Assembly: GCA_021825235.1 (NCBI GenBank)
Contig: JAKAIL010000009.1
Location: 1-33,233 of the forward strand
Length of the DNA stretch: 33,233 nt
Reading direction: 5' to 3'
Source: Bacteroidota bacterium
Lineage (GTDB): Bacteria > Bacteroidota > Ignavibacteria > Palsa-1295
Shown here: piece after piece, positions 6,966 through 32,288 of the stretch
Position numbering within the stretch: the first letter of the stretch is position 1
How the letters are laid out: every line of letters starts with the position of its first letter
The notes under the pieces: generated by a model
What the model saw: the letters and a program-made list of their open reading frames with translations, nothing else
Told to the model about the DNA's origin: nothing
Database searches by the model: none
Position numbers and translations under genes: made by a program

Positions 6966-8219
6966 ATGGATGACCGATCATCCCTCGATGCTTTAATTTC
7001 GGAATGCGAGCGCGTCGCATTCGATCTTCAATTTGCTCGTGCCAAGGACTGGAAACACGATCCGGCAGCCTCTGGCCGCTGGATTGCGGGGTATTTACCG
7101 ATTTACATTCCTCGTGAGATTATCCATGCGATGGGTGGTCTCCCCGTGGGCATTATGGGCACCGGTGACCGGATGCAGATCATCAAAGGAGATGCATATT
7201 ACCAGTCGTACATCTGCCATTTGCCGCGCGGAGTCGTGGAACTTGCATTGGCTGGTGCGTTCGACGAATTCGATGTCTTCCTGTTTCCTTCGATATGCGA
7301 TGTCATTCGCAACCTCTCCGGCATGTTCCAGATTTTCCGACCCAGTGCATACGTAAAGTATCTTGACTTGCCACAAAATTTCTCGCCCGGTGTGGGCGGG
7401 ACATTTTACCGCCACGATCTCGAGAACACCATGGACGGCATTCGCCGGCATTTGGGGGACACACTAAAACACGTGCCACGGGGCGAGTGGGTGGCACGGC
7501 TTAATTACTCCATTCATTTATATAATGAGAACCGCCGGCGTATTGAGCGAATCGTGGAGCTTCGGCAGGAATTTCCGTGGCGCTTGTCAGCAGTCGATTG
7601 GTATCATGTTCTTCGCGCAGGGCTTGCTATGCCAGTCGAGGAGCATAACAATATTCTTTACGAACTTGAAGGACTGCTGCAGGAAGAACGTGGACGGAAG
7701 CTCGATAACATACGCGTCGTCGTAAGCGGCGCGTTTTGCGAGCAACCGCCAGTTGGCCTTATCAAGACCATTGAAATGGCCGGATGCTATATCGTGGATG
7801 ACGATTTCATGCTTGGCTCGCGATGGATCGAGGGCGATATTCCGGACGATACCGATGACCCGCTTGGCGCTATCGTCACCGCGTATCTCGATCATTCTAC
7901 GTTTTCCGCCTCGCTCTACGAAGCTGCACCGGCGAGCGGGACGAAAGTCGAGCGATTGGCCGAACTCGTTCGAAAACGCAAGGCGGACGGGGTCATCTTC
8001 GCCTCAGCAAGCTTCTGCGATCCGGCACTGCTGGACCGCCCGGAACTCCAATTAGGCATCGAGCGCGCCGAAATTCGCACCATTGGCGTCCAATATAGCG
8101 AGCATACCGGCCAGTTTAAGTCCATTAAGGAGGAGGTAGGCGCTTTTTCGGACTCCATTAAGCTGTGGGATTCCGAATCTGGTACGCACACTTGGCTACC
8201 GACCGTCTTGGAAGGATGA
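6966..8219 (+). CDS. bzdN: Benzoyl-CoA reductase, Bzd-type, subunit N (BcrC/HgdB superfamily)
   Basis: 417 aa; YIPREIIHAMGGLPVGIMGTGDR, GDAYYQSYICHLPR, FPSICDVIRNLSGM, FCEQPPVGLIKTIEMAGCYIVDDD, SFCDPALL. Confidence 0.9.
   Translation: MDDRSSLDALISECERVAFDLQFARAKDWKHDPAASGRWIAGYLPIYIPREIIHAMGGLPVGIMGTGDRMQIIKGDAYYQSYICHLPRGVVELALAGAFDEFDVFLFPSICDVIRNLSGMFQIFRPSAYVKYLDLPQNFSPGVGGTFYRHDLENTMDGIRRHLGDTLKHVPRGEWVARLNYSIHLYNENRRRIERIVELRQEFPWRLSAVDWYHVLRAGLAMPVEEHNNILYELEGLLQEERGRKLDNIRVVVSGAFCEQPPVGLIKTIEMAGCYIVDDDFMLGSRWIEGDIPDDTDDPLGAIVTAYLDHSTFSASLYEAAPASGTKVERLAELVRKRKADGVIFASASFCDPALLDRPELQLGIERAEIRTIGVQYSEHTGQFKSIKEEVGAFSDSIKLWDSESGTHTWLPTVLEG
6968..6983. repeat. Copy of GGATGA-N4-TCATCC overlapping the bzdN start codon
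   Basis: GGATGACCGATCATCC; its first G is the third base of the bzdN ATG. Confidence 0.75.
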
Positions 8220-8245
8220 TTGATCATCCGGATGATTGATCATCC
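8214..8245. repeat. Two perfect tandem copies of GGATGATTGATCATCC between bzdN and bzdO
   Basis: Read directly at 8214-8229 and 8230-8245; spans the bzdN stop codon. Confidence 0.9.
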
Positions 8246-8270
8246 AGGGAACACTAACCGCGTAAATTGT

Positions 8271-9653
8271 ATGGCGATTGCACCCCCACCGTTTTTCAAA
8301 GCCAAGCCTCCGGCGAAGCCGGTCGAAGTGGTAAAAGAGCGGAGTATGCTCCTTCAAAAGGAGATGCTCGCGAAGCAGTTTCACGATCTCTCGGCTGCGA
8401 AAGAGACCGGTCGAAAGGTTGTGTACACCTTCGTGCCAGGTAACCTTTCCGAACTGATCCTGGCCTTCGACATGCTGCCGGTCTATCCGGAGATCAATGC
8501 GCTCCAGTGGGGGATGCGGAAAAAATCGGGCTCCATGATCCGCGATGCCGAGAAGTATGGCTATTCCGAAGATGTCTGCACCTATGTAAAGTGCGACATT
8601 GGAATGTTCCTGAATGGGAACATCGGCCCGACCGGAGAAAAGTTACCACCTCCGGACCTGCTGCTCCTGAGCTACACGGGTTGCTTCACCTTCCTTAAAT
8701 GGTTCGAGAATTTACAGAAACTCTATCCTGGGGTTCCCGTGGCGATGCTGCACACGCCCTACGCTGCCGATGGAAAGATCACTGGCGAGATGGTCACCTA
8801 TATGGTGAAACAACTCGAAGAGGAAGTCATCCCGAAAATGGAGATGGTCTCGGGGAAGAAATTCGATCGGGAAAAGCTCTCGCAACATCTGGGATATGCA
8901 CGGGATAGTGAAGACTGGATCAGCAAGATTTTCGCGCTCACGAAGCAAAAACCATCGCCGATAGACGCGTATTTTGCGGGCGTGTATTACATCGGTCCAA
9001 TCAATGCCGGGTTCCGGGGCGCGGAAAGCGCGGTCGAGTATTACCGGCAGTTGTATTTGGAAGTTGCGGAACGGGCAGCCCATGGCAAGACGCCGGTTAC
9101 GCCCGAAGGGGATCTGGAAGAGGAGCGATTCCGCCTCGTAGTAGAAGGTCCGCCGAACTGGACACATTTCCGGGAATTCTGGAAGCTCTTCTACGATATG
9201 GGCGCGGTCGTCGTAGCCTCCTCCTATACCAAAGTAGGCGGCTTGTTCGATGAAGGCTTCCGGCACGATCCGGAGAAGCCGTTCGAAAGCCTGGCGCGCT
9301 ATTGTATGGGCTGCTATACCAATATCAGTCTGCCGGAGCGCATCAATCTGCTCGAACGATTTATCAAAGAGTATAAGGCGGACGGGTTCCTCATCAATTC
9401 GATCAAGAGCTGCAATTCCTTCTCTGCCGGGCAGCTCCTCATCATGAGGGAACTTGAACAGCGGCTTGGCATACCGGTGTCGTTTATCGAGTCCGACTTG
9501 GTGGACCCGCGCTATTTCTCCTACGCTAATATTAAGAATCGGCTCGACAGCTTTTTCCAAATGATGGAGCAGCGCAAGCGAGCAGGTTCCCATCATTCCG
9601 AAGGGAGAGGGAGTCTGTTATTGCCAATCGTAGAAAGCGAGGCCGTAGCATGA
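8271..9653 (+). CDS. bzdO: Benzoyl-CoA reductase, Bzd-type, subunit O (BcrB superfamily)
   Basis: In-frame start at 8271 (MAIAPPPFFKAKPP) preferred over 8220, whose extension is repeat sequence. VPGNLSELILAFDMLPVYPEINALQ, YVKCDIGMF, GVYYIGPINAGFRG, NSIKSCNSFSAGQLL, ESDLVDPRYFS. Confidence 0.9.
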   Translation: MAIAPPPFFKAKPPAKPVEVVKERSMLLQKEMLAKQFHDLSAAKETGRKVVYTFVPGNLSELILAFDMLPVYPEINALQWGMRKKSGSMIRDAEKYGYSEDVCTYVKCDIGMFLNGNIGPTGEKLPPPDLLLLSYTGCFTFLKWFENLQKLYPGVPVAMLHTPYAADGKITGEMVTYMVKQLEEEVIPKMEMVSGKKFDREKLSQHLGYARDSEDWISKIFALTKQKPSPIDAYFAGVYYIGPINAGFRGAESAVEYYRQLYLEVAERAAHGKTPVTPEGDLEEERFRLVVEGPPNWTHFREFWKLFYDMGAVVVASSYTKVGGLFDEGFRHDPEKPFESLARYCMGCYTNISLPERINLLERFIKEYKADGFLINSIKSCNSFSAGQLLIMRELEQRLGIPVSFIESDLVDPRYFSYANIKNRLDSFFQMMEQRKRAGSHHSEGRGSLLLPIVESEAVA

Positions 9654-11104
9654 GCAACTATTATCTCGGCATCGATCTCGGTTCCACGACCTCTAAAGCC
9701 GTTATCATCAATCAGGATGATGAAATCATTGGCCGCGGCATCACGAATACACGCGCGAATTATGAAGTCGCGGCGGAAATTGCGCGCATTGCAGCGATTT
9801 TCAATGCCCGGTTTTCGCTGCTCAAGCGTGCGATGCATTCGGAGCTTGTATCGAATCCGGAGCTTCAGCGATACATTGCCGATCTCGAAGAGGCCTTTCA
9901 GTATGTGGAATTTCGCATACGTGCCGACCGGCTCTACCGGCAAATGGTTACCACTGCCTCGGCCTATTTCCCGCTGGACCGCCAGCCGGCGGTGCTTGCC
10001 GCACTCGGCAAAATCTTTGAAGTGGCGATTCCAGAGATCAAGCACCAATATCTCCACGAGAAGTTGGGGGCCAAGAACCAGTTCTTCCGTGATATATTCT
10101 TCGAACAATACAATCAACGCGTTACTGCGCTCGACCAGACTTCCGCGACGAAGCTCTTCGAGCCGCTCATGACGACATTCGACAAGAGTATCACACCGGT
10201 CGAGAATGAAATGCTCCCGATGGACTTCACCGCGCTCGTGCATGAGGCGATGGACATTCTGCAGGAGAAATATGCGGGTTTCTCCGAGCGCAAGCTTCGA
10301 CCAGGTTTTGCCTTCGATGAAGAACTTCAACTGCTGGCCGGCAACGTGCGCGAAGTCTCGGAGACCATTAAGAAGCATATTGACCGCATCGCTCAACAGG
10401 ACATTGCCATCGCAAATATGGTAGGGACCGGTTATGGCCGCGCACTCTTGCCATTTCCGCAGGAGTGTATTCGCTCTGAGATTCTCTGCCATGCATTCGG
10501 TGCGCACATCGCGTTCCCAAACACCCGAACCGTCCTCGATATTGGAGGGCAGGATACCAAAGCCATCCAAGTGGACGAAGAAGGTTTCGTTACCAGCTTC
10601 CAAATGAATGATCGATGTGCCGCGGGATGTGGCCGCTATTTGGGCTATATTGCGGACGAATTGGGCATTACGCTTAGCGAACTAGGCGAGTCTGCAACCC
10701 ATGCCGAGTGCGACGCGCAGATTAATTCCACCTGTACCGTTTTTGCCGGTGCCGAGCTTCGGGAATTGCAAAATTTAGGCGTTCGACGGGAAGATATTTT
10801 GGGTGGGCTGCACAAAGCCATCGTTTCGCGTGCCATGTCGCTCATTGCACGTTCCGGCGGAGTCCGAAACGAATTTACCTTTACCGGGGGCGTGGCGCGC
10901 AATCCGGCGGTGCTGAAATATCTGCGCGGCTTCATTCGAGAGAATTATGGTGAAGACATCACGATGAATATTCATACCGACTCCATCTTCATGGGAGCGT
11001 TAGGCGGCGCGCGGTTCGCACGGTTAGGGGTGAATGTGGAACTTCCTAAATCGAAACGCTCCAGCACGCCCATCATGCCGGAACTGGAAGGAGAGTTACT
11101 GTGA
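9650..11104 (+). CDS. bzdP: Benzoyl-CoA reductase ATPase/activator subunit (BzdP/BcrA-like)
   Basis: 484 aa; YYLGIDLGSTTSKAVI phosphate-binding motif, DIGGQDTKAIQ, NDRCAAGCGRYL, CTVFAGAEL, FTGGVARN. ATGA overlap with bzdO. Confidence 0.88.
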   Translation: MSNYYLGIDLGSTTSKAVIINQDDEIIGRGITNTRANYEVAAEIARIAAIFNARFSLLKRAMHSELVSNPELQRYIADLEEAFQYVEFRIRADRLYRQMVTTASAYFPLDRQPAVLAALGKIFEVAIPEIKHQYLHEKLGAKNQFFRDIFFEQYNQRVTALDQTSATKLFEPLMTTFDKSITPVENEMLPMDFTALVHEAMDILQEKYAGFSERKLRPGFAFDEELQLLAGNVREVSETIKKHIDRIAQQDIAIANMVGTGYGRALLPFPQECIRSEILCHAFGAHIAFPNTRTVLDIGGQDTKAIQVDEEGFVTSFQMNDRCAAGCGRYLGYIADELGITLSELGESATHAECDAQINSTCTVFAGAELRELQNLGVRREDILGGLHKAIVSRAMSLIARSGGVRNEFTFTGGVARNPAVLKYLRGFIRENYGEDITMNIHTDSIFMGALGGARFARLGVNVELPKSKRSSTPIMPELEGELL

Positions 11105-11967
11105 CGGATTCTATTTACACTCTCGGCATCGATGTGGGCGGCAGCGTCATCAAGGCGGTGCTTACCGAATATGCGGAAGAAAGCGGCTCGGTGAAGAGCC
11201 GTGTCGTGCGGCAGCGAATGGAGAAGATTCGCAAACGCAATCCGGCTACCGTGGCAGACGATCTGTTAAAATCCATTGCCAACGATCATGGTATTGGCTT
11301 GGAAGGTGTAGCCTACGTTGCTTCCACCGGTGAAGGCGAAATGGTGGAACGAAAGACGGGCCATTTCTACGGCATGACGACCCATGCGCGCGGCGCGCAC
11401 AGCTTTTGCCCCGAAGCGCGGACCGTGGTGGATATGGGTGCGCTCTATGCGCGTGCAATCAAGATCGATCCCACGGGGCGCGTGCTCGATCATAAAATGA
11501 CCGGGCAGTGCGCATCGGGTTCCGGGCAGTTTATCGAAAATATCTCGCGCTACCTGGGGCTTTCGATCGAAGAAGTGGGTGATGTTTCACTTGGAGCGAC
11601 GAACCCCGAGCAGCCTTCGGGTATCTGCGCCGTGCTTGCCGAAACGGACGTCATCAATATGGTCTCGCGCGGAATTTCGACGCCGAATATCATCAAGGGT
11701 ATCCATCTTTCCGTCGCGACGCGCATCGTACGGCTGCTGCTTTCGCTGAAGGCCGAGTCGCCGATTGTACTGACGGGTGGGCTTGGTCTCAACAAAGGAA
11801 TGGTACAGGCCGTCGAGGAATTGCTTGGAAAAGATTCCAAACAGAAGCATACGGTGCTTACGCATCCCGCACCAATCTATGCTGGTGCAATCGGCGCATC
11901 GTTGTGGGGTGGTTATCGCTATTTCCGGTTGGGCGGGAAAGCGAGAGTTAACGGACAGAACGCATAA
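11101..11967 (+). CDS. bzdQ: Benzoyl-CoA reductase ATPase/activator subunit (BzdQ/BcrD-like)
   Basis: 288 aa, GTG start overlapping bzdP stop; YTLGIDVGGSVIKAVLTEY, GQCASGSGQFIENISRYLG, CAVLAETDVINMVSRG, LTGGLGLNKG. Confidence 0.88.
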   Translation: MTDSIYTLGIDVGGSVIKAVLTEYAEESGSVKSRVVRQRMEKIRKRNPATVADDLLKSIANDHGIGLEGVAYVASTGEGEMVERKTGHFYGMTTHARGAHSFCPEARTVVDMGALYARAIKIDPTGRVLDHKMTGQCASGSGQFIENISRYLGLSIEEVGDVSLGATNPEQPSGICAVLAETDVINMVSRGISTPNIIKGIHLSVATRIVRLLLSLKAESPIVLTGGLGLNKGMVQAVEELLGKDSKQKHTVLTHPAPIYAGAIGASLWGGYRYFRLGGKARVNGQNA

Positions 11968-11978
11968 ACGGAGGAGTT

Positions 11979-13811
11979 ATGGGCGAGTCGGAGACAATTC
12001 ATGTAACCTACGCGAAGGGACCAGGTTTGGGACCGACGGTTCCCAATGTTGCTACGATGCTGAGGCGCAATGTCGGGCAGTTACCATTGGGAACCGTGTT
12101 CCAACAAACGTACTCCTCGCCCTTTTCGCGGAAATGGGCGGGTGGGTATGGTTTTCAGGGATCGAACTGGATCAATGTTGTGGAGACCATTTGCGTGATT
12201 GCGCGCAGGCTCCAGTCCTTCGGCATGGAAGAGGGCGATTCTGTGGCTATTGTTTCGCAGAATCGGATTGAGATGCTGGAACTCGAACTGGCGATTATGG
12301 CAAGCGGTGGCGTAGCGGTTCCCATCTTTCCATTTTATCCACCGGCCACGCTCGATCATCTCCTCGAGTTTTGCGGAGCGCGATTCGTCGTGGTGCAAGG
12401 CGCGGCGCAATTGGACCGAATGACTCCTACAAAACGAATGAAGCGCCTGTTTTCCTTCGATCCGGTCCACGACGAGCGGTTCCCAGAACTCCTGCCCTTC
12501 GACATTCTGACGGATGGCGTTCGCCGCTCGATGGACACGGTTGTATTTGATCCACTCGATTTCTCGGCGCTTTCGTTCGAAGTCGATCCCGATGCGATCT
12601 GCCTTCGGCAATATACCTCGGGAACCTCGGCCAAGCGGAAGTTAGTCGAACTGTCGCATCGGAATATTTTATCGCAGCAGGCAGCGCTGGATGAAATGTG
12701 GGATTTGAACCCGAGCGACCGCATGCTAAGCTATCTGCCGTGGCACCATAGCTTCGGCGGCATTTTCGAGCTGTTCACCTCGCTCTATCGTATGGTGCCA
12801 ATGAGTTTGGAACCATCCTATGGCAAGGACCCACAGTCCATTCTCGAAAACTGGAAGCAGATCCAACCGACGGCGTTCTTCAGCGTACCACGGGTGTATC
12901 AATCGCTGGTAGATTTAGTACGCGGAGATGAGGAAGCGATGGAAGCATTTTTCCATCCGGAACTGAAATTCGTGTTTACCGCAGCTGCGCCTCTGCCAGA
13001 ATTTGTAGCACGCGAATTCGAAGAACGCGGCGTGCGTATCGTGGAAGGATGGGGACTTACGGAAACGGCTCCCTGCTGCACAATTACCGGCGTAACTTCG
13101 AAGCGTAAATCCGGGATCGTTGGACATCCCATTCCTGGCATCGAACTGCGCATTGCTTCGGATGGCGAAATCCAGGTACACGGCCCGAACGTCATGCGGG
13201 GCTACTATGATAATGACGAGGCCAATGCGGCATCGTTCACCCAAGACGGCTGGTTCCGGACCGGCGATGTAGGTGCCATAACGCCGGAAGGCCTTAGGCT
13301 GATCGGAAGGAACGATCGTATCTTCAAGCTATCGAATGGCGAAAAAATTGTTTCTGCCGATGTGGAGCGCGCGCTCCAGAGTGCCTGCCCATACCTAACC
13401 TTTGTGGTGATCGAAGGGCGTGGCGAGGAGTTCCCTGTTGCTTTGCTATTTCCCAATCGCGGATTGCTCGATGGACATACGCACGAATCCGAGCACCCCG
13501 TGAGCAGGGGCTGTTTGTGTCCAACCTCGCTCGAAGACCTTTCGCAATGTTTGCACGATTGCCTGATCGAAGCGAACGAGACCATCTCGCCCAAGTTCGC
13601 GCGCGTGCCATACGCGATTTTGGTGGACGACGATCTCTCCATCGACCGTGGTACGCTGACGCCTTCCATGAAGGTGATCCCGGACAAAGTAATCTCCGCC
13701 TATCGCTCCGCAATCGATCGCATCTACCAACGGCCAGAAACGAATCCGGGCCTCGACTTAAGCCATTTCATCGTAACGCTTAAAGCGCCGGAAGTGGCGG
13801 CAATCCATTAA
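11979..13811 (+). CDS. AMP-dependent acyl-CoA synthetase/ligase (FadD15/long-chain-like)
   Basis: 610 aa; YTSGTSAKRKLVELSHRN (divergent P-loop), GWGLTETAPC, GWFRTGDVG, LTPSMKV. Confidence 0.85.
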   Translation: MGESETIHVTYAKGPGLGPTVPNVATMLRRNVGQLPLGTVFQQTYSSPFSRKWAGGYGFQGSNWINVVETICVIARRLQSFGMEEGDSVAIVSQNRIEMLELELAIMASGGVAVPIFPFYPPATLDHLLEFCGARFVVVQGAAQLDRMTPTKRMKRLFSFDPVHDERFPELLPFDILTDGVRRSMDTVVFDPLDFSALSFEVDPDAICLRQYTSGTSAKRKLVELSHRNILSQQAALDEMWDLNPSDRMLSYLPWHHSFGGIFELFTSLYRMVPMSLEPSYGKDPQSILENWKQIQPTAFFSVPRVYQSLVDLVRGDEEAMEAFFHPELKFVFTAAAPLPEFVAREFEERGVRIVEGWGLTETAPCCTITGVTSKRKSGIVGHPIPGIELRIASDGEIQVHGPNVMRGYYDNDEANAASFTQDGWFRTGDVGAITPEGLRLIGRNDRIFKLSNGEKIVSADVERALQSACPYLTFVVIEGRGEEFPVALLFPNRGLLDGHTHESEHPVSRGCLCPTSLEDLSQCLHDCLIEANETISPKFARVPYAILVDDDLSIDRGTLTPSMKVIPDKVISAYRSAIDRIYQRPETNPGLDLSHFIVTLKAPEVAAIH

Positions 13812-13815
13812 CCGC

Positions 13816-15054
13816 ATGGCTATGAAAGAACTGCAATCGACACAACTGCTCAAGGAGGTGATGGGCAAGTATTTCACCACCCTTGGGGAGAGTGAAGCCA
13901 CGGGAAGGAAAGTGGCCTGGTGTACGAGCACCGGTCCGGCGGAACTATTACGAGCCTTCGGCTTCGAAGTGTATTTCCCGGAGAACCACGGCGCCCTGCT
14001 CGGTACGACGCGCACGGCTGGCGATTACATTCCCGTTGCCGTAAAACAAGGCTATGCCGGAGATATTTGCTCCTACCTTACAAGCGATATTGGAGCGTAT
14101 CTCGATCGCCGCACGCCGCTCACGCAGCATTACGGACTTTCGCATATTCCAAAGCCGGACGTGCTTGCCTACACCACGAACCAATGCCGTGAAGTGCAGG
14201 ATTGGTTTGCGTTCTATGCTCGGGAGTTTAGCGTTCCGCTCGTTGGCGTAAACCCACCGCGCTTTGTGGACGAAGTTTCCGCAGAGAACGTAGCGGACGT
14301 TCGCCGCCAGTTCGAATCACTCGTCCCGGCGCTGGAAGCCGCGAGCGGTGTGGTGTTCGATATTGACCGCTTTCGAGAAACGGTGCGGCTTAGTTCCGAA
14401 GCGTCTGCGCTATGGCGCTCGGTATTGGAAACTGCGAAAGCAAGCCCGGCGCCGCTCAGCTTTTTCGATGGCACGATCCACATGGGGCCGATTGTGGTCC
14501 TGCGCGGTACGGAAGCAGCCGTTAACTATTATCATGCGTTGCTTCTGGAACTCAATGGCCGCGTAGCCGCCGGCGTCGGGGTCGTGAGTAATGAGATGGC
14601 ACGTCTCTATTGGGATGGAATGCCCATCTGGGGCAAGTTGCGTTCGATGTCCAACCTCTTTCATTCGAATGCAGCGGTGGTGGTGGCATCTACCTATTGC
14701 AATAGCTGGATTTTGGATACGATGGACGAGCGGACTCCCTTCGAATCCACCGCGCTTGCCTATACGCAAATCTTCATCAACCGCAGCGAGCAGGCGAAGG
14801 AGAAGATACTCGCGGAACTGATGGCGGAGTACCGCGTGGACGGCATCATCTTCCACGATGCACGCACGTGCTTTAACAATACAAATGCACGCTTTGGGAT
14901 GCCACAGAGGGTGCAGCAGAAAACAGGAGTTCCCTCACTCGTGATAGAGGGCGATCTCTGCGACCTTCGCTTTTTTTCCGAAGGTCAGACCACCACTAAA
15001 ATTGAAGCCTTTATCGAACAACTGATTGACGCAAAGATGGGGGTGGAGGCATAA
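13816..15054 (+). CDS. Second HgdB/BcrB-like 2-hydroxyacyl-CoA dehydratase/benzoyl-CoA reductase-family subunit
   Basis: 412 aa; TGPAELLRAFGFEVYFPENHGALLG, GYAGDICSYLTSDIGAYL, NQCREVQDWF, VVASTYCNSW, DGIIFHDARTCFNNT, VIEGDLCDLRFF. Confidence 0.85.
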   Translation: MAMKELQSTQLLKEVMGKYFTTLGESEATGRKVAWCTSTGPAELLRAFGFEVYFPENHGALLGTTRTAGDYIPVAVKQGYAGDICSYLTSDIGAYLDRRTPLTQHYGLSHIPKPDVLAYTTNQCREVQDWFAFYAREFSVPLVGVNPPRFVDEVSAENVADVRRQFESLVPALEAASGVVFDIDRFRETVRLSSEASALWRSVLETAKASPAPLSFFDGTIHMGPIVVLRGTEAAVNYYHALLLELNGRVAAGVGVVSNEMARLYWDGMPIWGKLRSMSNLFHSNAAVVVASTYCNSWILDTMDERTPFESTALAYTQIFINRSEQAKEKILAELMAEYRVDGIIFHDARTCFNNTNARFGMPQRVQQKTGVPSLVIEGDLCDLRFFSEGQTTTKIEAFIEQLIDAKMGVEA

Positions 15055-16910
15055 TGGAAGCCGAGAAGAAAAGAATTGCTATCGTTGGACTGGGTCCGGT
15101 CGGGCAAATCCTCGCCGTGCATCTCGCGGAAGCAGGCCAGGAAGTCCTGCTCTGCGATATGGACAAAGGCCGCATGCACTTGATCCAGAAAGAGGGGATC
15201 GAGCTTACCGGCGCAATGCGGAAGAAGGCGCACTGTGCGGAACTGTTTACTTCCGTTGCTGACCTTTTGCCATTTAAGCCCGATGCGATCGTTTTTTGCG
15301 TGAAAGGTTACCACCTGAGTGCGCTCATCCCTGGGATGGTCCATTTCCCGAGGCAGGGGATCCTCTATATCAGCGCGCAGAACGGGATCGATACGGAACT
15401 CGAACTGGCTGAGGCATTCGGAGAAGCGAATACGTTCCGGATGGTGGTAAACTATGCGGGTAACCATCGCGCGCCAAACGTCATCGGTGTGAACTTTTTC
15501 AATCCGCCGAATTACATTGCTTCGATTGATGATTCCCAGTCCGAAGCCGCGCGTTGGTTTGCCGATCTGCTCACCAGTGTGAAGCTGGACACGATGGCGG
15601 TGGATTCCTTCGAAATCCTGCGCCGCGTATGGGAAAAGACGATCCTCAACTCTTCGCTGAGCGCGCTCTGCGGTGTCTCGCAGATGAACATGCGCGAAGT
15701 GATGGCGCTGCCCGATATGGTCGATATTATCGAGCAGGTCATTATGGAATCCATCGCGGTGGCGAAGGCTGAGAACATTCACTTCGAGGTGAACTTTATT
15801 CGGCATTGCATGAGGTATTTGAGGAAGTCCGGTGGGCATTTCCCTTCGCTCGCTGTGGACCTGATGAACAAGCGTCCGACGGAGATCGACTATTTTAACG
15901 GCAAGTTCGTCGAATATGGCAAGAAGCATTACCTGCCGACGCCTATGCACCTGGCCTTCACCAATATGGTGAAAGCAATTACGCAAAAGCATTTATCGGT
16001 ACAGGGTGCCGCCGCGACAAAGTCAACAGCGCCTTCGAGGGAACTCCTGCATTTGCCTCGGCTCATGAACGGGCAGAGCAGCGAGTATTATCTCGGCGTT
16101 GATTTGGGTTCGGCCTACACGAAAATCGTCGTTATTAACGAGCAGCGAGATGTGCTCTATCGCGAAGTGGTGAAAACGCTCACACGCGATAAAAAGCCGC
16201 TCTCGGATACGCTGGACGAAGTCCGCGACCGGTTTCCAATCAAGACGATTTGTGCCACAGGCTATGGTCGCGAGCAATTCCCCGGCGCAGACGTGACCAA
16301 GACCGAGATCCATTGCGCGGCTAAAGCGGTACATCATCTAACTGGGACAGGCTCGAATATTATCGATATCGGTGCTGAGGACATAAAGATTATCACGATC
16401 GGGAATAATGGCGCGGTCCAACACTTTTATATGAATTCGAAGTGCGCGTCGGGAACCGGAGCATTCCTTACCGAGATGGCCGAGAAAGTTGAGATCCCCA
16501 TCGAGGAGATGAGTAAGCTTGCCGCGCTTTCTTCGACGGCGAAGGAGATCAACAGCTTCTGTACCGTCTTCGCAAAAACGGAAGTGATGAAATGGAGCTT
16601 CGATCAAATACCGATCGAGGACATTGCGCGTGGGATCTATCTTTCGCTTACGAATCGGATACACAAACTCAAGATCGATCCGGATTTGCCCATTGTACTC
16701 GCCGGTGGGGTCATTGCATTCCATCCGCTGTTGCGGTCACTCCTGGCGGACCGCTTCCAGAGGCCAGTGAGTATTATTTCAAATCCACAATATTGCGTGG
16801 CTTTCGGCGCTGCACTTTTTGCGCAACGGGCTTCGAAACTTGGTGCGTCCGCAGTTGCGCCAGAGCCGATGCAAGTACTCAGCCCACGCCTCGTTGCGAT
16901 AGAAGTTTAA
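15054..16910 (+). CDS. Fusion: N-terminal ketopantoate-reductase-like (ApbA/PanE) domain (about 15054-16010) and C-terminal HgdC/BadF/BcrA-type activator ATPase (about 16070-16900)
   Basis: 618 aa single ORF. N-term IAIVGLGPVGQILAVHLAEAGQEVLLCDMDKGR...FCVKGYHL...SAQNGID...RPTEIDYFNGKFVEYGKKHYLPTPMH (KPR pattern). C-term YYLGVDLGSAYTKIVV...DIGAEDIKII...SKCASGTGAFLTEMAEKV...NSFCTVFAKTEV...LAGGV. TAATG overlap with upstream gene. Confidence 0.85.
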   Translation: MEAEKKRIAIVGLGPVGQILAVHLAEAGQEVLLCDMDKGRMHLIQKEGIELTGAMRKKAHCAELFTSVADLLPFKPDAIVFCVKGYHLSALIPGMVHFPRQGILYISAQNGIDTELELAEAFGEANTFRMVVNYAGNHRAPNVIGVNFFNPPNYIASIDDSQSEAARWFADLLTSVKLDTMAVDSFEILRRVWEKTILNSSLSALCGVSQMNMREVMALPDMVDIIEQVIMESIAVAKAENIHFEVNFIRHCMRYLRKSGGHFPSLAVDLMNKRPTEIDYFNGKFVEYGKKHYLPTPMHLAFTNMVKAITQKHLSVQGAAATKSTAPSRELLHLPRLMNGQSSEYYLGVDLGSAYTKIVVINEQRDVLYREVVKTLTRDKKPLSDTLDEVRDRFPIKTICATGYGREQFPGADVTKTEIHCAAKAVHHLTGTGSNIIDIGAEDIKIITIGNNGAVQHFYMNSKCASGTGAFLTEMAEKVEIPIEEMSKLAALSSTAKEINSFCTVFAKTEVMKWSFDQIPIEDIARGIYLSLTNRIHKLKIDPDLPIVLAGGVIAFHPLLRSLLADRFQRPVSIISNPQYCVAFGAALFAQRASKLGASAVAPEPMQVLSPRLVAIEV

Positions 16911-16959: not shown

Positions 16960-18216
16960 ATGAAAAGTTACCATCACACCGAACGCGGCGTTGGCATCGT
17001 CTTCGATGACATTGTACTCGTAGGCGGCGCGCGTACGCCCTTCGGCGATTTGGGCGGCTCGCTCGCCCGCATTTCTCCAACCGATCTCGGCATTATCGCT
17101 TCGCGCGGCGCGCTCGAAAAAACCGGGACCGATCCCAAATCGATAGACCAGGCCATCATTGCGAATATTGGCCAGGCAAGTTACGATGCCTACTTTGTGG
17201 GGCGGCATATCGGGCTGTATTCCGGGCTGCCGGTTGGTGTGCCGGAGTTGCAAGTACAACGAATCTGCGCTTCGGGTTTAGAGACGATTATTACCGGCGC
17301 GGAGCAAATCATGCTGGGAAAAGCGGACCGGGTACTGTGCTGCGGTGCCGAGAGCATGTCGCTCGCGCCGACGGCCAGTTTTGGGAACCGTATGGGCTAT
17401 CATCTCGGCCAGGTGGTATTCAAAGATATGCTTTGGGAAGCCCTGGATGATACCGCTGCGGGTTATTCCATGGGGCAGACCGGCGAAAACGTGGCCGAGA
17501 AATACGGCATTACTCGGGCCGATACCGATCACTTCGGCTGGTGCTCGCAGGACCGCGCCGCGAAAGCACAGGCGCGTGGATATTTTGCACCGGAGATCAC
17601 CGAAGTGCAATCCGCAACCTTCACAGCCGAGGGGCTAAAGCCGCGAACGATTCGAGTCGGGAAGAAGGGAACGTCTGTTTCGAAGGACGAACATATTCGT
17701 CCTACTACGGAGGAAGGACTTTCCGGATTGCCGACTTCGTTCCGCGAAAATGGCGTGCAAACGGCGGGCAATAGCGCCGGTATTGTCGATGGTGCTGCTT
17801 CTGTCATCATCGCTTCGGCGTCCGCCAATCATTCGGCATCCAAGCCCCTCGCAAAGATCGTGGCCGCGGCATCATGTGGGGTCGATCCCAAGTATATGGG
17901 GATTGGCCCGGTGCCGGCGATAAGATTACTGCTGGAACTTACCGGGCTGACGATGGACAAGATCGATCTCGTCGAAATTAACGAGGCATTCGCGGCGCAG
18001 GTTATCGCCTGCGAGCGGCTGCTCGATCTCGACCATTCAAAGGTGAACGTGAATGGTGGGGCGGTAGCGCTGGGCCATCCACTGGCGGCGACGGGTACCC
18101 GGCTTGCACTTACGATTGCGCGCTCGCTCAAGGAACGAGGCCTTCGCTACGGCATTGCCTCGGCCTGCATCGGCGGCGGGCAGGGCACAGCAATGTTAAT
18201 TGAAAACATCAATTAA
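16960..18216 (+). CDS. Thiolase (acetyl-CoA acyltransferase)
   Basis: 418 aa; RICASGLE active-site Cys, NEAFAAQ, NVNGGAVALGHPLAATG, SACIGGGQGTAMLI. Confidence 0.9.
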   Translation: MKSYHHTERGVGIVFDDIVLVGGARTPFGDLGGSLARISPTDLGIIASRGALEKTGTDPKSIDQAIIANIGQASYDAYFVGRHIGLYSGLPVGVPELQVQRICASGLETIITGAEQIMLGKADRVLCCGAESMSLAPTASFGNRMGYHLGQVVFKDMLWEALDDTAAGYSMGQTGENVAEKYGITRADTDHFGWCSQDRAAKAQARGYFAPEITEVQSATFTAEGLKPRTIRVGKKGTSVSKDEHIRPTTEEGLSGLPTSFRENGVQTAGNSAGIVDGAASVIIASASANHSASKPLAKIVAAASCGVDPKYMGIGPVPAIRLLLELTGLTMDKIDLVEINEAFAAQVIACERLLDLDHSKVNVNGGAVALGHPLAATGTRLALTIARSLKERGLRYGIASACIGGGQGTAMLIENIN

Positions 18217-18258
18217 GGAAGAATGGAATTATCCATTAAGGAAGAATGGAATTATCCA
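18213..18258. repeat. Perfect 23-bp tandem duplication TTAAGGAAGAATGGAATTATCCA x2
   Basis: Read directly at 18213-18235 and 18236-18258; begins at the thiolase stop codon. Confidence 0.9.
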
Positions 18259-18261
18259 TCT

Positions 18262-18293
18262 GAGCACTTCAGCACTTTAGCACTTAGCACTTT
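18262..18293. repeat. AGCACTT repeat tract upstream of had
   Basis: GAGCACTTCAGCACTTTAGCACTTAGCACTTT. Confidence 0.75.
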
Positions 18294-18297
18294 TCCA

Positions 18298-19383
18298 ATG
18301 GAACAATTTATTACCTCCTGGCGCATGACCGCACAAGATGCGGACCTGGTGCAGACCTCGGTTCCAATACCGGAACTGAAACCGGGCGAGGCGCTCGTAA
18401 AAATTGCTGGTTGCGGCGTATGCCATACCGATCTTGGATTTTGGCATGATGGAGTGAAGACAAAGCACCCGTTGCCACTGACGCTCGGCCATGAGATCAG
18501 CGGCACGGTCATTGCCCTCACCCCGTCCCTCTCCCCGGGGGAAAGGGGGAATCTCGTTGGCAAAAGCGTAATCATTCCGGCCGTGCTGCCGTGCGGCGAG
18601 TGCGATCTCTGCAAATCGGCCCGCAGCAATATCTGTCGTAATCAGAAGATGCCTGGTAATGATTTCGATGGTGGATTTGCATCGCATATTATCGTTCCAG
18701 CGCGCTTTTTGTGTCCGGTTCCGGAGGAATTGCTACACCATCATGATCTTGCTACGCTGAGTGTGATTGCCGATGCGGTCGCTACGCCGTATCAGGCGGT
18801 GAAAAAGTCGGGCCTCGTTAGAGACGATTTTGTGATTGCAATTGGCGTGGGTGGCGTCGGTATTTATGGCGCGCTTATAGCACAAATCTTCGGCGGCAAA
18901 GTGCTTGCGATCGATATTAACGATGAGCGGCTGAAATCTGCCTCGGAAATGGGAATTCCGGCAACGCTGAATGTCGCAGGATTAGACCTTAAGGCAATCA
19001 AGAATAAAGTGCGCGAGATCGCGGAGCGGTTTGGCACCCGCCCGAACGGGTGGAAAATATTCGAATTCTCCGGAACGAAAGCGGGGCAGGAATTGGCATT
19101 CAATCTTATGTCCTACGCTTCGACCGTTTCCATTGTCGGCTTTACGATGGACAAGATCGAGGTGCGGCTCAGCAATCTTATGGCCTTCGATGCGACGATG
19201 ATCGGCACGTGGGCGTGCAAGCCGGAACTCTATCCGGAAATCCTGGATCTGTTTGCGGAAGGCAAGCTTTCCGTCGAGCCCTTCGTGCAGGTCTTTCCGC
19301 TGGAGTCTATCAATCAAATTTTCCACGACACGCTTGCGCATAAGTACACCAAGCGCACGGTCCTCATACCCAACGATAACTAA
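18298..19383 (+). CDS. had: 6-hydroxycyclohex-1-ene-1-carbonyl-CoA dehydrogenase (zinc alcohol dehydrogenase family)
   Basis: Start 18298 (MEQFITSWRMTAQ) preferred over 18223, whose extension is intergenic repeat. CGVCHTDLGFWHDGV, GHEISG, PAVLPCGECDLCKSARSNIC. Located between bzd genes and oah/dch. Confidence 0.87.
   Translation: MEQFITSWRMTAQDADLVQTSVPIPELKPGEALVKIAGCGVCHTDLGFWHDGVKTKHPLPLTLGHEISGTVIALTPSLSPGERGNLVGKSVIIPAVLPCGECDLCKSARSNICRNQKMPGNDFDGGFASHIIVPARFLCPVPEELLHHHDLATLSVIADAVATPYQAVKKSGLVRDDFVIAIGVGGVGIYGALIAQIFGGKVLAIDINDERLKSASEMGIPATLNVAGLDLKAIKNKVREIAERFGTRPNGWKIFEFSGTKAGQELAFNLMSYASTVSIVGFTMDKIEVRLSNLMAFDATMIGTWACKPELYPEILDLFAEGKLSVEPFVQVFPLESINQIFHDTLAHKYTKRTVLIPNDN
18514..18555. 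repeat. Palindromic repeat-like segment inside had, translated ALTPSLSPGERGNL
   Basis: CCCTCACCCCGTCCCTCTCCCCGGGGGAAAGGGGGAATCTC; core 18526-18550 is an imperfect palindrome and resembles widespread CCCTCTCCC..GGGAGAGGG intergenic repeats. Confidence 0.65.
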
Positions 19384-19393
19384 AGGAACAGCA

Positions 19394-20488
19394 ATGGAAC
19401 ATCTTATCAACCATAACCTGGTACGTGCAGAATACTCGCACATCCTTTTCGAGAAGCGCCCCGCTCGCGATGCAGCCGGCCAGCCCATCGAGGGCTTGTT
19501 CAATGCCTGGATTATTCTGAACAATCCAGAGCAATATAATTCTTATACCACCGAAATGGTGAAGGAAGTCATTCTCGCATTTCGCGAAGCCTCCAACGAC
19601 CGTAGCCTAGTGGCCGTCGTTTTCACCGCCGTTGGCGATAAAGCCTTCTGCACCGGTGGCAACACGAAGGAATATGCCGAGTATTACGCGGGGAACCCGC
19701 CAGAGTACAAACAGTACATGCGGCTCTTTAACGACATGGTCTCCGCGATCCTGATGTGTGATAAGCCGGTCATTAATCGCGTGAACGGTATGCGTATTGG
19801 AGGCGGGCAGGAGATCGGCATGGCCTGCGATTATTCTATCGCATCGGATCTTGCTCGCTTCGGTCAGGCCGGTCCTAAGCATGGCAGCGCGCCGGACGGC
19901 GGTTCGACCGACTTTCTCCATCTCTTTGTTGGGATCGAAAAGGCGATGTATTCCTGCACGGTTTGCGAGCCCTGGACAGCACACGAGGCGTTCCGCAATG
20001 GCCTCATCACCGAGGTAGTTCCGGCGGTGAAGGTAGATGGGAACTGGATTGCAAATCCACTCGTGGTCACCGACCGTTGGGTAGATGAGAGCGGCCAAAT
20101 CGTTTATGGCACGATGAAGACGGGTGCGGCCCTCGCCGAAGCAAAAGCGCTTATGAAGCGAGCCACCACCGACCTTTCCAAGCTCGATGAAGCGGTGGAA
20201 CGGATTTGTTTTAAGCTAATGAATACATTCCCTAATTGCCTAACAAAAACCATTGGTTCGGTACGCAAGAAGAAGTTAGAGCACTGGGACCAGAATAAGG
20301 AGAGCAACCGCGAATGGCTGGGTCTTAATATGATGACCGAAGCCTATGCGGGATTCAAAGCTTTCAACGATGGACCAAAAGACCATCGTGAGGTGGACTT
20401 CATCAAGCTCCGTCAATTGCTGGCGCAAGGCGAGCCCTGGACGGAAGAACTCGTCCGCAAAATTTCACCGCAATATCAGCACGCATAA
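19394..20488 (+). CDS. oah: 6-oxocyclohex-1-ene-1-carbonyl-CoA hydrolase (ring-opening)
   Basis: In-frame start at 19394 (MEHLINHNLVRAEYSHILFEKRPA). Crotonase-like; CTGGNTKEYAEYYAGNPPEYKQYMRLFNDMVSAIL, MRIGGGQEIGMACDYSIASD are typical of Oah. Confidence 0.9.
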   Translation: MEHLINHNLVRAEYSHILFEKRPARDAAGQPIEGLFNAWIILNNPEQYNSYTTEMVKEVILAFREASNDRSLVAVVFTAVGDKAFCTGGNTKEYAEYYAGNPPEYKQYMRLFNDMVSAILMCDKPVINRVNGMRIGGGQEIGMACDYSIASDLARFGQAGPKHGSAPDGGSTDFLHLFVGIEKAMYSCTVCEPWTAHEAFRNGLITEVVPAVKVDGNWIANPLVVTDRWVDESGQIVYGTMKTGAALAEAKALMKRATTDLSKLDEAVERICFKLMNTFPNCLTKTIGSVRKKKLEHWDQNKESNREWLGLNMMTEAYAGFKAFNDGPKDHREVDFIKLRQLLAQGEPWTEELVRKISPQYQHA

Positions 20489-21300
20489 TGGTCGATAGCA
20501 TTGGAGAAATTGTAAATAGCATTCGCGTCGAGCGGGCGCTGGCGGGCGGAGAGACGGAACCCGCTTGCGTAAAAATCACGCTGGGCGGAAGTAAGGGGAA
20601 TATCCTTACCCGCGAGGTGATGTTCGAATTGCGACGTGTCCTCTCCTATGCGGTAAAAGATCCGAATGTTAAAGTAATTATTTTCACAGGCGAAGGAAAG
20701 CATTTCTCCTTTGGCGCAAGTGTGGAAGAACACGAGCGGAAGCATGCGGCGGAAATGATCCATGATTTTCATCATCTAATCCTTCAGGTTGCGGAACTAT
20801 CTATTCCCGTAATTTCTGTGGTTTCCGGCTATTGCCTGGGCGGTGCGCTGGAGTTGGCATTGGCTGGGAGCCTGATCTTTGCCGATAAAACAGCCTTCTT
20901 TGGCCAGCCGGAGATTAACCTCGGAGTCTTCCCGCCCCCGGCCTCCGTGTTGCTTCCGCTCAAGCTCGGGTATGCGCGCGCCGAAGAACCGCTGCTTACC
21001 GGCGAAAATATATCCGCACCGCGAGCGTATGAGATTGGGCTTATAACCCGGCTGTTTGCAACACGGGAAATGCTTCTGGTTGGAACAGACGAGTGGGTCC
21101 AAAAGCATATCCTTGCCAAGAGCGCCAGTTCGCTCCGGCTCGCGGTACGGGCAGAACGTTCCCAACTGATCGAGTTATTGCATACACATCTTCCTCGGCT
21201 CGAACGGCTCTATACGGAAGAACTAATGTCAACGCACGATGCGAATGAGGGCATCGCAGCATTTTTAGAAAAACGACAACCTAAGTGGAATAATCAATGA
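20488..21300 (+). CDS. dch: Cyclohexa-1,5-diene-1-carbonyl-CoA hydratase
   Basis: 270 aa crotonase; FTGEGKHFSFGASVEEHERKHAAEMIHDFH, SGYCLGGALELALAGSLIFAD. TAATG overlap with oah. Confidence 0.88.
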   Translation: MVDSIGEIVNSIRVERALAGGETEPACVKITLGGSKGNILTREVMFELRRVLSYAVKDPNVKVIIFTGEGKHFSFGASVEEHERKHAAEMIHDFHHLILQVAELSIPVISVVSGYCLGGALELALAGSLIFADKTAFFGQPEINLGVFPPPASVLLPLKLGYARAEEPLLTGENISAPRAYEIGLITRLFATREMLLVGTDEWVQKHILAKSASSLRLAVRAERSQLIELLHTHLPRLERLYTEELMSTHDANEGIAAFLEKRQPKWNNQ

Positions 21301-23321
21301 GTGGTTCTATTAAGACGGTAGGAGTAATCGGCGCTGGAACAATGGGCGCGGCCATTGCTCAAAAATGTGCGCAGGAAGGATTCCGCGTCGTGCTCAACGA
21401 CCGCTCCGCGACGTTCGTCGAACGCGGCTTGGCTTCGCTCGAAAAGAGCCTTGCAGAAGGCGTCGAGCGCAAGGTGTTCACCGAGCAGGAGGCGCGCGAT
21501 ATTCGTGGACGAATCCATGGGTCGTTTCAGGGAGCGGACCTCGCACCATGCGATCTCGTCGTCGAAGCGATTTTCGAAGACCTCGAAGTGAAGAAGGCGA
21601 TGTTCGCGCGACTCAGTGCGATCGTTCGCCCGGACACCATCATTGCAACAAATACCTCCTCGTTTTCCGTGACGGAGCTTGCGCGTTCGGTTTCTAATCG
21701 CGAGCGGTTCTGCGGCCTGCATTTCTTTTATCATGCAGCCAAGAACCGGCTGGTCGAAATCATTCCAGGCATGGATACTTCTCGGGAGACGATCCAGGCC
21801 CTCAAACGATTTGCATTTGAAAGTGGTAAGGACGCGATTCTGTGCAGCGATAGGCCTGGGTTTGCGGTAAACCGGTTTTTCGTTCCGTGGCTGAATGAAG
21901 CGGCGCGCTTGCTCGAAGAAGGCATTGTCGGCGAGGATATCGCGGCTGCAACAGCGGCTATCGATGTCATCTGTCAATCCGTCTTTCAGATTGGCATGGG
22001 ACCGTTTGCACTGATGAATGCAACCGGGGTTCCCATTGCCTATCACTCCGAACGGACGCTCGAAGCATTGGGCGAGGCGTATAAGGTTTCGACGCTGTTG
22101 CGTGACCAGGCTTCGAAGAATGAACCGTGGCAGATTTCAACGGCTCCCGCTACCCTTGCGCCCGATGCAGAGCAAACCATTCGCGATCGCATGCTTGGCA
22201 TTGTGTTCTTTGTTTGCGGAGAGATTCTCGCAGAACAGGTCTGCACGGCGGCGGAACTTAACCGTGGCGCGCGCATCGGGCTGGCGTGGCGCAAAGGGCC
22301 AGTCGAGCTCATGCAGAATGCAGGCAAGGTGGAGGTGGACCGGCTGGTTGGTACTATTGCAGATCGATATCACTCGACGGTTCCAAACGGATTACAGCAT
22401 GCCTTCGAACCGATGCAATTCGTGAAACTCGATCAATCCGGTTCGACCGCCGTCATTACATTCGAGCGGCCTGAAGATATGAATGCGCTAAATGAGGTCG
22501 TTATATCGCAGCTTGCGAAATGTTTCGCGACGGCCAATCGAGATTCAGAGATCAATCAGATTATTATTACCGGTAGTGGAAAGGCTTTCGTTGCCGGCGC
22601 GGATATTGGATTTTTTATAAAGAACATTCGCTCCGGAAACATTGATCGGATTCTCTCCTTTACAGAACGCGCCCAATCGGTCTTCGATGAAATTGACCAT
22701 TCGTCTAAGCGGGTGGTGGCGCTCCTCAATGGCCTTACCTTAGGTGGGGGATTGGAGTTGGCGCTCTGCGCGGATGAAATATACGCGTTGCCGGGTACGC
22801 AGCTATCGTTCCCGGAAACCGGTATTGGAATTTATCCGGGACTGGGAGGGACTCAGCGTACTACGCGTCGCACCGGGAAAGGCATCGCCAAGTACCTGAT
22901 TTTTACCGGAGACATGCTCAAAGCTGCCGATGCCGCTAAGATTAGCTTGGTGGACCGAGTCATTCCGAGGGATGAATATTTCGAGATGTTACAAGGAAAC
23001 CTACCGGGAGTTCCAGAACGTCAAGCGGCGAAAGTGACGCATCCATGGAACTCGATTGGGCAATTATTTGCTGAGGTCCCCGTTGCGAAATTAGTCAGCA
23101 ACGAACCGATCGCCGATGGCCTCTTTAGCGACGACGTCGAACGATTGCGGAAGCGGGTCCGCCAAAAAGCGCCACTTGCGCTCCGCACGGCGGAGCGATT
23201 GGTCGAGGAGGAACGCGGTTGCGCGTCGGAATTGGAATTTCTGCCGGAGATTTTCCAGACGCAAGACGCGCTGCTCGGATTGAGCTCCATTGGAAAGAAA
23301 GTTACCTTCACCGGAAGTTAA
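21297..23321 (+). CDS. Bifunctional 3-hydroxyacyl-CoA dehydrogenase (N-term) / enoyl-CoA hydratase (C-term)
   Basis: 674 aa; VGVIGAGTMGAAIAQ NAD motif and 3HCDH domain, then from about 22425 crotonase domain ITGSGKAFVAGADI, GLTLGGGLELALCADEIYA. Confidence 0.9.
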   Translation: MSGSIKTVGVIGAGTMGAAIAQKCAQEGFRVVLNDRSATFVERGLASLEKSLAEGVERKVFTEQEARDIRGRIHGSFQGADLAPCDLVVEAIFEDLEVKKAMFARLSAIVRPDTIIATNTSSFSVTELARSVSNRERFCGLHFFYHAAKNRLVEIIPGMDTSRETIQALKRFAFESGKDAILCSDRPGFAVNRFFVPWLNEAARLLEEGIVGEDIAAATAAIDVICQSVFQIGMGPFALMNATGVPIAYHSERTLEALGEAYKVSTLLRDQASKNEPWQISTAPATLAPDAEQTIRDRMLGIVFFVCGEILAEQVCTAAELNRGARIGLAWRKGPVELMQNAGKVEVDRLVGTIADRYHSTVPNGLQHAFEPMQFVKLDQSGSTAVITFERPEDMNALNEVVISQLAKCFATANRDSEINQIIITGSGKAFVAGADIGFFIKNIRSGNIDRILSFTERAQSVFDEIDHSSKRVVALLNGLTLGGGLELALCADEIYALPGTQLSFPETGIGIYPGLGGTQRTTRRTGKGIAKYLIFTGDMLKAADAAKISLVDRVIPRDEYFEMLQGNLPGVPERQAAKVTHPWNSIGQLFAEVPVAKLVSNEPIADGLFSDDVERLRKRVRQKAPLALRTAERLVEEERGCASELEFLPEIFQTQDALLGLSSIGKKVTFTGS

Positions 23322-26276: not shown

Positions 26277-26282
26277 TCTTTG

Positions 26283-32197: not shown

Positions 32198-32278
32198 TCG
32201 CGGGAATGACCGGTTTGCTGTTGCGCGAAGCGCTGCGCGCGTGACGCCCTGTCATCCCCGCGAATGCGGGGATCCACG
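32186..32278. repeat. Inverted pair of palindromic repeats (TTCCCGCATTCGCGGGAA and ATCCCCGCGAATGCGGGGAT)
   Basis: 32189-32206 and 32254-32273; wider copies GTCATTCCCGCGAATGCGGGAACCCAGG (rev. comp.) and GTCATCCCCGCGAATGCGGGGATCC are in opposite orientation. Confidence 0.8.
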
Positions 32279-32288
32279 TTCTCCACTA

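Follow-up and report, generated by a model that had tools for sequence, protein, structure and literature searches.

A lone dehydratase-like subunit and a ketopantoate reductase-activase fusion in a benzoyl-CoA reductase gene cluster of Bacteroidota, and their probable link to aromatic amino acids

Why would a gene cluster that already encodes a complete ATP-dependent benzoyl-CoA reductase also carry a further protein of the same superfamily, together with an activating ATPase joined to what resembles a ketopantoate reductase? The question is raised by a 33,233-nucleotide stretch of DNA from an Ignavibacteria member of the Bacteroidota (the window; contig JAKAIL010000009.1 of assembly GCA_021825235.1, positions 1 to 33,233, forward strand). 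One of the two genes at issue encodes a 412-residue protein of the HGD-D family, which we label HgdB2, and the other a 618-residue fusion of a ketopantoate reductase-like (KPR) domain with an HgdC-type activase. A preliminary description had read the pair as a self-contained second electron-gun enzyme. The domains are recognizable, the catalytic residues are intact, the module is conserved and linked with benzoyl-CoA reductase, ligases and sometimes an aminotransferase, and it has no beta subunit. Judging from residues and gene context, we think it probable that the two genes encode a dehydratase system for an (R)-2-hydroxyacyl-CoA, through which phenylalanine and tyrosine enter the benzoyl-CoA pathway; we infer both the substrate and the direction of the module. 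Its parts are as follows.

13816..15054, + strand: HgdB2, lone HadB-like alpha subunit of the HGD-D family, 412 residues, proposed aryllactyl-CoA dehydratase (PF06050 match, HadB scores, residues and tree)
15054..16910, + strand: KPR-activase fusion protein, 618 residues (open reading frame, Pfam domains and relatives)
15054..15989, + strand: KPR / D-2-hydroxyacid dehydrogenase domain, residues 1-312 (K84, N110, K195, N199, S265, D269 and E277; D35 at the end of beta2)
15990..16085, + strand: variable linker, residues about 313-344 (alignment of relatives)
16086..16838, + strand: HgdC-type activase domain, residues 345-595 (cluster cysteines C464 at 16443-16445 and C503 at 16560-16562)

HgdB2 matches the HGD-D family (PF06050) with an E value of 3.3e-63, and its scores are highest on the dehydratase side of that family. 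It reaches 203 bits with the HadB model and lies well under the curated cut-offs of the reductase beta-subunit models (176 of 487 bits for BcrB, 86 of 449 for BzdO). A profile search of the PDB ranked HadB at 236 bits, MbdO at 171 and BzdO at 118, and HadB was also the top match when the single sequence was used. The nearest protein that is not an orthologue, 38% identical, comes from genome G561, where it lies within an operon of ligase, HadC-like, HadB-like and activase genes, the textbook arrangement of a dehydratase.

The six cysteines of HgdB2 are residues 36, 85, 124, 295, 352 and 382. Those in the DIC, NQC and RTC motifs had been proposed as plausible [4Fe-4S] ligands, and our alignment bears this out: Cys85, Cys124 and Cys352 align with the three cluster ligands of both HadB and BzdO, and they are invariant in the 35 HgdB2 relatives compared.

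14068..14070, + strand: Cys85, [4Fe-4S] ligand, aligned with HadB Cys84
14185..14187, + strand: Cys124, [4Fe-4S] ligand, aligned with HadB Cys117
14869..14871, + strand: Cys352, [4Fe-4S] ligand, aligned with HadB Cys346
13921..13923, + strand: Cys36 (W-C-T-S), in 35 of 35 HgdB2 relatives and missing in HadB, BcrB and the G561 dehydratase
14698..14700, + strand: Cys295 (Y-C-N-S-W), invariant, aligned with a double-cubane-type cysteine of DCCP and BzdN

All 35 relatives also keep the HadB-type W-x-T-S and PEN motifs and the equivalent of HadB Trp294, at places where BcrB has Y-x-F-V, PEI and Gly. The position of BzdO His131, which has a catalytic role (PMC11971306), is occupied by Val in every one of them. 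In the tree, HgdB2 forms a clade of its own (support 100/100) that is separate from the Bcr/Mbd clade (97/93) and falls with HadB, the G561 dehydratase and BzdO (91/86); given the long branches, we use this tree solely as an argument against a BcrB origin. By these residues, then, HgdB2 carries the active-site signature of an (R)-2-hydroxyacyl-CoA dehydratase and not that of a benzoyl-CoA reductase. It resembles HadBC and its activator (PDB 3o3m and 4eht), the (R)-2-hydroxyisocaproyl-CoA dehydratase, in alpha-subunit sequence, active-site residues, three-cysteine cluster, HgdC-type ATPase and the expected (R)-2-hydroxyacyl-CoA substrate. Phenyllactate dehydratase of Clostridium sporogenes (FldBC/FldI) also ranks among the closest systems, going by its description.

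Unlike HadBC and FldBC, HgdB2 has no beta subunit and has two extra conserved cysteines; in part of its family the activase is fused to a KPR-type dehydrogenase, and the genes lie inside a benzoyl-CoA degradation cluster rather than a fermentation operon. Every 2-hydroxyacyl-CoA dehydratase whose biochemistry has been studied is, to our knowledge, a heterodimer, with the cluster of its beta subunit storing the recycled electron. Component D of the known enzymes is such an alpha-beta heterodimer (PMC11574389), and no second HGD-D partner for HgdB2 was found in genome G000 or in the single-contig genomes G059 and G295, where the only other HGD-D proteins are the two reductase subunits. Because this second chain is missing, HgdB2 falls outside the heterodimeric definition, and we describe it as dehydratase-like in its presumed working rather than filing it as a standard member; it may act as a homodimer. 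The earlier reading of a separate HgdC-driven, HgdB-type module beside the main reductase stands, while "self-contained" does not hold in the usual sense.

The two extra cysteines, Cys36 and Cys295, are absent from HadB and the G561 enzyme and present in an archaeal HgdB2 homologue. When one incomplete sequence is added to the alignment, Cys295 is still invariant and Cys36 nearly so. Like HgdB2, DCCP with its reductase (PDB 6eno and 7yyl) is a single HGD-D chain with an activase of its own, and Cys295 aligns with one of its double-cubane-type cysteines, although the HgdB2 profile matches DCCP at a low 39-40 bits. We considered and rejected a full double-cubane cluster in HgdB2: with the three shared cysteines and Cys295, at least one of the six that DCCP has is missing, and Cys36 is shifted by one column.

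The fusion gene begins within the end of the HgdB2 gene, the two overlapping as TAATG at 15052-15056. The three Pfam domains that the preliminary description predicted were all found above their gathering scores (ApbA at residues 8-144, ApbA_C at 188-309 and BcrAD_BadFG at 347-590), and the coupling and the cluster motifs KCASGTG (C464) and CTVFA (C503) are as it had them. An assembly or frameshift artefact joining two genes can be ruled out, because ten genomes from five families of the window's class (f1, f3, f6, f14 and f16) carry the same uninterrupted architecture at 47-84% identity to the window's protein, the single-contig G059 among them. The linker varies between these relatives, at about 30-40 residues. 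In family f61 the KPR and activase genes are adjacent and separate, and in Bacteroidales and family f10 they stand apart, in or near the same cluster. No fusion was found in a plasmid collection, where the best match spanned about half of the query.

The activase domain exceeds the TIGR00241 cut-off (169.9 versus 125.4 bits), both of its cluster cysteines are present in 21 of 21 sequences, and a dedicated HgdC-type activase, fused or separate, lies in or near the cluster in relatives. A known activator is a homodimer that has a single [4Fe-4S] cluster and delivers one electron at the cost of ATP, and dehydratases reuse the injected electron for about a thousand turnovers (PMC8473912, PMC11574389). 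The fusion could serve to tie substrate supply to the activase, which itself would be needed only in sub-stoichiometric amounts. We regard it as strong genomic evidence for function, in that it couples the activase with the presumed producer of the dehydratase's substrate.

The KPR domain, with its Rossmann and ApbA_C parts, exceeds the TIGR00745 cut-off (150.6 versus 141.35 bits). Loss of its conserved cofactor residues had been named as something that would undermine the earlier reading, and the catalytic residues are intact: across 47 KPR sequences (10 fusions, one of these rows incomplete, and 37 stand-alone forms), K84, K195, D269 and E277 are kept without exception, and the few replacements of N110, N199 and S265 occur among the stand-alone forms. 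Asp35, at the end of beta2, is found in 8 of the 10 fusions and in all 37 stand-alone sequences. Its best solved relatives are 8wl1 (the closest), 2ew2 and 3wfi, the last of which we take to be the Enterococcus D-mandelate dehydrogenase; they score 80 bits at best, far ahead of E. coli PanE (1ks9). With 3wfi and 8wl1 the domain shares the catalytic Lys, Asn, Ser, Asp and Glu residues and the Asp at the beta2 end; unlike them it is fused to an activase and has its own conserved motif, F-F-N-P-P-N-Y, and the relationship is distant. These comparisons place the domain nearest the D-mandelate dehydrogenase branch and predict an NAD-type cofactor preference. D-Mandelate dehydrogenases of the KPR family accept benzoylformate and branched 2-ketoacids (PMC4230899), and the (R)/D product expected from a KPR enzyme has the stereochemistry that HadB-type dehydratases require (PMC11971306). 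Because the 2-oxoacid reductase residues are intact and the domain has neither a flavin nor an Fe-S domain, it more likely makes the dehydratase's substrate than feeds electrons to the activase.

Taken together, these parts would form the following route. The KPR domain, as an NAD-type D-2-hydroxyacid dehydrogenase, would reduce the arylpyruvate produced by transamination of phenylalanine or tyrosine to (R)-aryllactate, which the neighbouring ligase would convert to aryllactyl-CoA. The HgdC-type domain, a homodimer sharing one [4Fe-4S] cluster through two cysteines of each chain, would hydrolyse ATP and inject one electron into HgdB2. HgdB2 would then remove water through a ketyl radical at its three-cysteine [4Fe-4S] cluster, giving (4-hydroxy)cinnamoyl-CoA and recycling the electron. 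Hydration, oxidation and thiolysis would yield (4-hydroxy)benzoyl-CoA: cinnamoyl-CoA would reach benzoyl-CoA by this beta-oxidation, and 4-coumaroyl-CoA would do so by way of 4-hydroxybenzoyl-CoA and the molybdenum enzyme 4-hydroxybenzoyl-CoA reductase, with BcrCBAD leading on to ring opening.

If the module serves such a pathway, it should keep company with benzoyl-CoA reductases. In a survey of 393 genomes of the window's class, HgdB2 orthologues (E < 1e-140) occurred in 24, of which 23 also have a Bcr- or Bzd-type reductase, two different types of the enzyme; in the exception, G622, the HgdB2 gene lies at the edge of a 7.2-kb contig. G407 and G461, two more genomes with a reductase, carry either the fusion or KPR together with the activase, on short contigs. 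HgdB2 and an activase are present in G404, where no KPR was found at 1e-60. A third type of class I reductase, 48% identical to the window's BcrB, is found in six genomes; five of these hold clusters that lack the trio of HgdB2, KPR and HgdC-type activase, and the sixth, G576, has fragments only and was left out of the cluster comparison. With all six counted, a Fisher test of co-occurrence gives 9e-33, a value that shared ancestry makes far too strong.

The trio-less third type, in the same class, makes it less likely that the benzoyl-CoA pathway always requires the trio. Among the clusters without the trio, two have an indolepyruvate (arylpyruvate) oxidoreductase, with the alpha subunit over its cut-off, which may represent an alternative use of arylpyruvates. 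We dropped 4-hydroxybenzoyl-CoA reductase as trio-specific evidence, since genomes with the third reductase type possess it too. The third-type clusters (L096 in G631, L097 in G623, and L098-L100) contain had-, oah- and dch-like genes, and L096 also has a 2-isopropylmalate-synthase-like gene.

Genes around the trio in relatives fit the proposed amino acid supply. An aminotransferase adjoins KPR in five genomes, and in four loci of family f10 (L067, L068, L069 and L072) it lies between two KPR genes, in the same locus as an ADP-forming ligase, HgdB2 and 4-hydroxybenzoyl-CoA reductase; L067 additionally encodes a 2-oxoacid oxidoreductase. A putative phenylalanine aminotransferase is the third-best solved match of this aminotransferase. 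The ADP-forming ligase adjoins HgdB2 or KPR in relatives, replacing or joining the AMP-forming one, and short-chain dehydrogenase/reductase (SDR) and thiolase genes accompany the benzoyl-CoA reductases. As a separate observation, the two KPR genes of the f10 loci may differ in their 2-oxoacid substrate, phenyl versus 4-hydroxyphenyl.

The module also reaches beyond bacteria. A metagenome-assembled genome labelled as Thermoplasmata, an archaeon (G690; loci L107 and L020), has a KPR 40% identical to ours beside two ligases. It also has an HgdB2 (53%, with both extra cysteines) beside an ADP-forming ligase (64%), and its benzoyl-CoA reductase is of the Bzd type (58% for the O subunit). With ligases of both types present as well, this suggests that the whole module was transferred between domains.

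Several observations weigh against a dehydratase for aromatic amino acids. The best model for the aminotransferase is hisC, which is non-specific; no aminotransferase is present in the window, and no window gene was assigned as a cinnamoyl-CoA-specific hydratase. The tree has long branches and places BzdO on the HadB side, and such grouping alone would leave a reductase possible. D-Mandelate dehydrogenases also accept branched-chain 2-ketoacids, which makes a substrate of the 2-hydroxyisocaproate type possible. Finally, known dehydratases are heterodimers, and we know of no precedent for a lone alpha subunit.

HgdB2 might also pair with BcrC (or BzdN) in an alternative heterodimer sharing the gamma subunit of the reductase, as the alpha-beta build of the known component D (PMC11574389) and the lack of any other HGD-D protein in G000, G059 and G295 would favor. 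However, HgdB2 orthologues are found with BcrC in some genomes and with a very different BzdN in others, and the two extra conserved cysteines suggest self-sufficiency; we consider this pairing unlikely, and it concerns quaternary structure only, being compatible with the chemistry proposed above. Another possibility is a non-aromatic substrate, 2-hydroxyisocaproyl-CoA or 2-hydroxyglutaryl-CoA as in clostridial amino acid fermentation, the glutarate version connecting ring-derived glutaryl-CoA to 2-oxoglutarate. The best characterized relative of HgdB2 is indeed the 2-hydroxyisocaproyl enzyme, the KPR family reduces branched 2-ketoacids, and a thiolase able to release glutaryl-CoA is adjacent. 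Yet leucine or glutamate as the source would give no evident reason for the close link with benzoyl-CoA reductase seen in Bacteroidota and the archaeon, and two reductase clusters without the trio have an arylpyruvate oxidoreductase instead, which leaves this alternative doubtful.

It is very doubtful that HgdB2, using the activase for an electron gun, is a second class I reductase whose substrate is a dearomatised intermediate or a substituted benzoyl-CoA. HgdB2 shares superfamily, ATP-driven activation and gene neighbourhood with the class I reductases BcrCBAD, BzdNOPQ and MbdONQP; it always lies within aromatic clusters, the BcrB model gives it 176 bits, and in the tree BzdO sits on the same side as HadB. 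Unlike those enzymes, however, it has HadB-type active-site residues, it has no gamma-type partner in the genome except BcrC or BzdN, and a complete reductase is already encoded in its operons. It is linked with an aminotransferase, a 2-oxoacid reductase and a ligase, and the five clusters of the third reductase type manage without it. Of the substrates suggested in the preliminary description, a 2-hydroxyacyl-CoA agrees with our data, whereas the two benzoyl-CoA-derived ones find no support in the HadB-type residues, in the position outside the Bcr/Mbd clade or in a context that runs from amino acid through 2-oxoacid and 2-hydroxyacid to CoA ester. That NAD(P)H bound to the KPR domain reduces the activase cluster is barely credible, even though an NAD-binding domain is covalently fused to an Fe-S activase: the hydride-transfer residues are intact, flavin and Fe-S domains are lacking, KPR is unfused and not beside the activase in many relatives, and a known activator receives its electron from ferredoxin (PMC8473912).

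Returning to the dehydratase proposed here, we regard as new the KPR-activase fusion and a dehydratase alpha subunit with no beta partner and two extra conserved cysteines. The preliminary description knew of no account of the fusion; in the literature searched, which included few subscription papers, we likewise found no description of it or of a beta-less dehydratase, nor any pairing of a ketopantoate reductase with a benzoyl-CoA reductase or, among the matches listed, with a 2-hydroxyacyl-CoA dehydratase. For a benzene degrader, a route from phenylpyruvate through phenyllactyl-CoA to benzoyl-CoA has been discussed as a hypothesis (PMC13416013). We suggest more tentatively that the window encodes a way, not described before, of converting phenylalanine and tyrosine anaerobically to benzoyl-CoA via aryllactyl-CoA and cinnamoyl-CoA. 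Its dehydratase would be homomeric and beta-less, its extra cysteines would add to the second cluster or stand in for it, and its activase would be joined to the substrate-making dehydrogenase. If true, this pathway would explain the benzoyl-CoA reductases of these uncultured Bacteroidota and of the Thermoplasmata archaeon by aromatic amino acid oxidation and not by pollutants alone, and it would employ a dehydratase step of the kind known to date from clostridia that ferment. With its extra conserved cysteines, a lone alpha subunit would also let the need for a beta subunit be tested directly.

The remaining genes of the cluster are listed below. The reductase, named bzdNOPQ in the preliminary description, is instead bcrCBAD by family-model scores: its subunits reach 413 (BcrC), 649 (BcrB), 414 (BcrA) and 303 (BcrD) bits, against 57 for the bzdN model and 87 for the bzdO model. 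The alpha and beta parts of the 4-hydroxybenzoyl-CoA reductase most resemble HcrA and HcrB; at 789 of the 995 cut-off bits, the alpha part is a divergent member.

6966..8219, + strand: bcrC (TIGR02263, 412.6 bits; best model, just below the 421 cut-off)
8220..9653, + strand: bcrB (TIGR02260, 648.7 bits, over the cut-off)
9650..11104, + strand: bcrA (TIGR02259, 413.7 bits)
11101..11967, + strand: bcrD (TIGR02261, 302.9 bits)
11979..13811, + strand: AMP-forming acyl-CoA ligase, proposed aryllactate (or benzoate) CoA ligase (Pfam)
16960..18216, + strand: thiolase (family model and domain match)
18223..19383, + strand: had, 6-hydroxycyclohex-1-ene-1-carbonyl-CoA dehydrogenase (TIGR03201, 434.9 bits)
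19253..20488, + strand: oah, 6-oxocyclohex-1-ene-1-carbonyl-CoA hydratase (TIGR03200, 618.9 bits; true start probably further in)
20488..21300, + strand: dch-like enoyl-CoA hydratase (assigned by synteny)
21297..23321, + strand: 3-hydroxyacyl-CoA dehydrogenase / enoyl-CoA hydratase (domain match)
1079..3901, - strand: 4-hydroxybenzoyl-CoA reductase, gamma (2Fe-2S) and alpha subunits fused (TIGR03194, 789 bits; PDB 1rm6_A at 562 bits versus 332 for the next)
153..1082, - strand: 4-hydroxybenzoyl-CoA reductase beta subunit, a separate gene (1rm6_B best match; insertion C-x16-C-x7-C-x8-C)
3901..4644, - strand: SDR, possible 3-hydroxyacyl-CoA dehydrogenase (domain match; an SDR also adjoins reductases in relatives)

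The C-x16-C-x7-C-x8-C insertion is presumably the site expected, from the Thauera enzyme, for the extra [4Fe-4S] cluster of the beta subunit. Within this molybdenum-enzyme operon lies a hemerythrin-like gene (4634-5149, - strand) that recurs in relatives L061, L091, L092 and L094 and is perhaps an oxygen guard. Molybdenum cofactor genes stand beside the cluster (24121-27311, - strand: moeA, moaC fused to a MoCF domain, and moaA), which suits the cluster's need for that cofactor. Further along on the same strand are a 939-residue open reading frame with no Pfam match (27364-30183) and two adjoining DUF4402 proteins (31523-32858).

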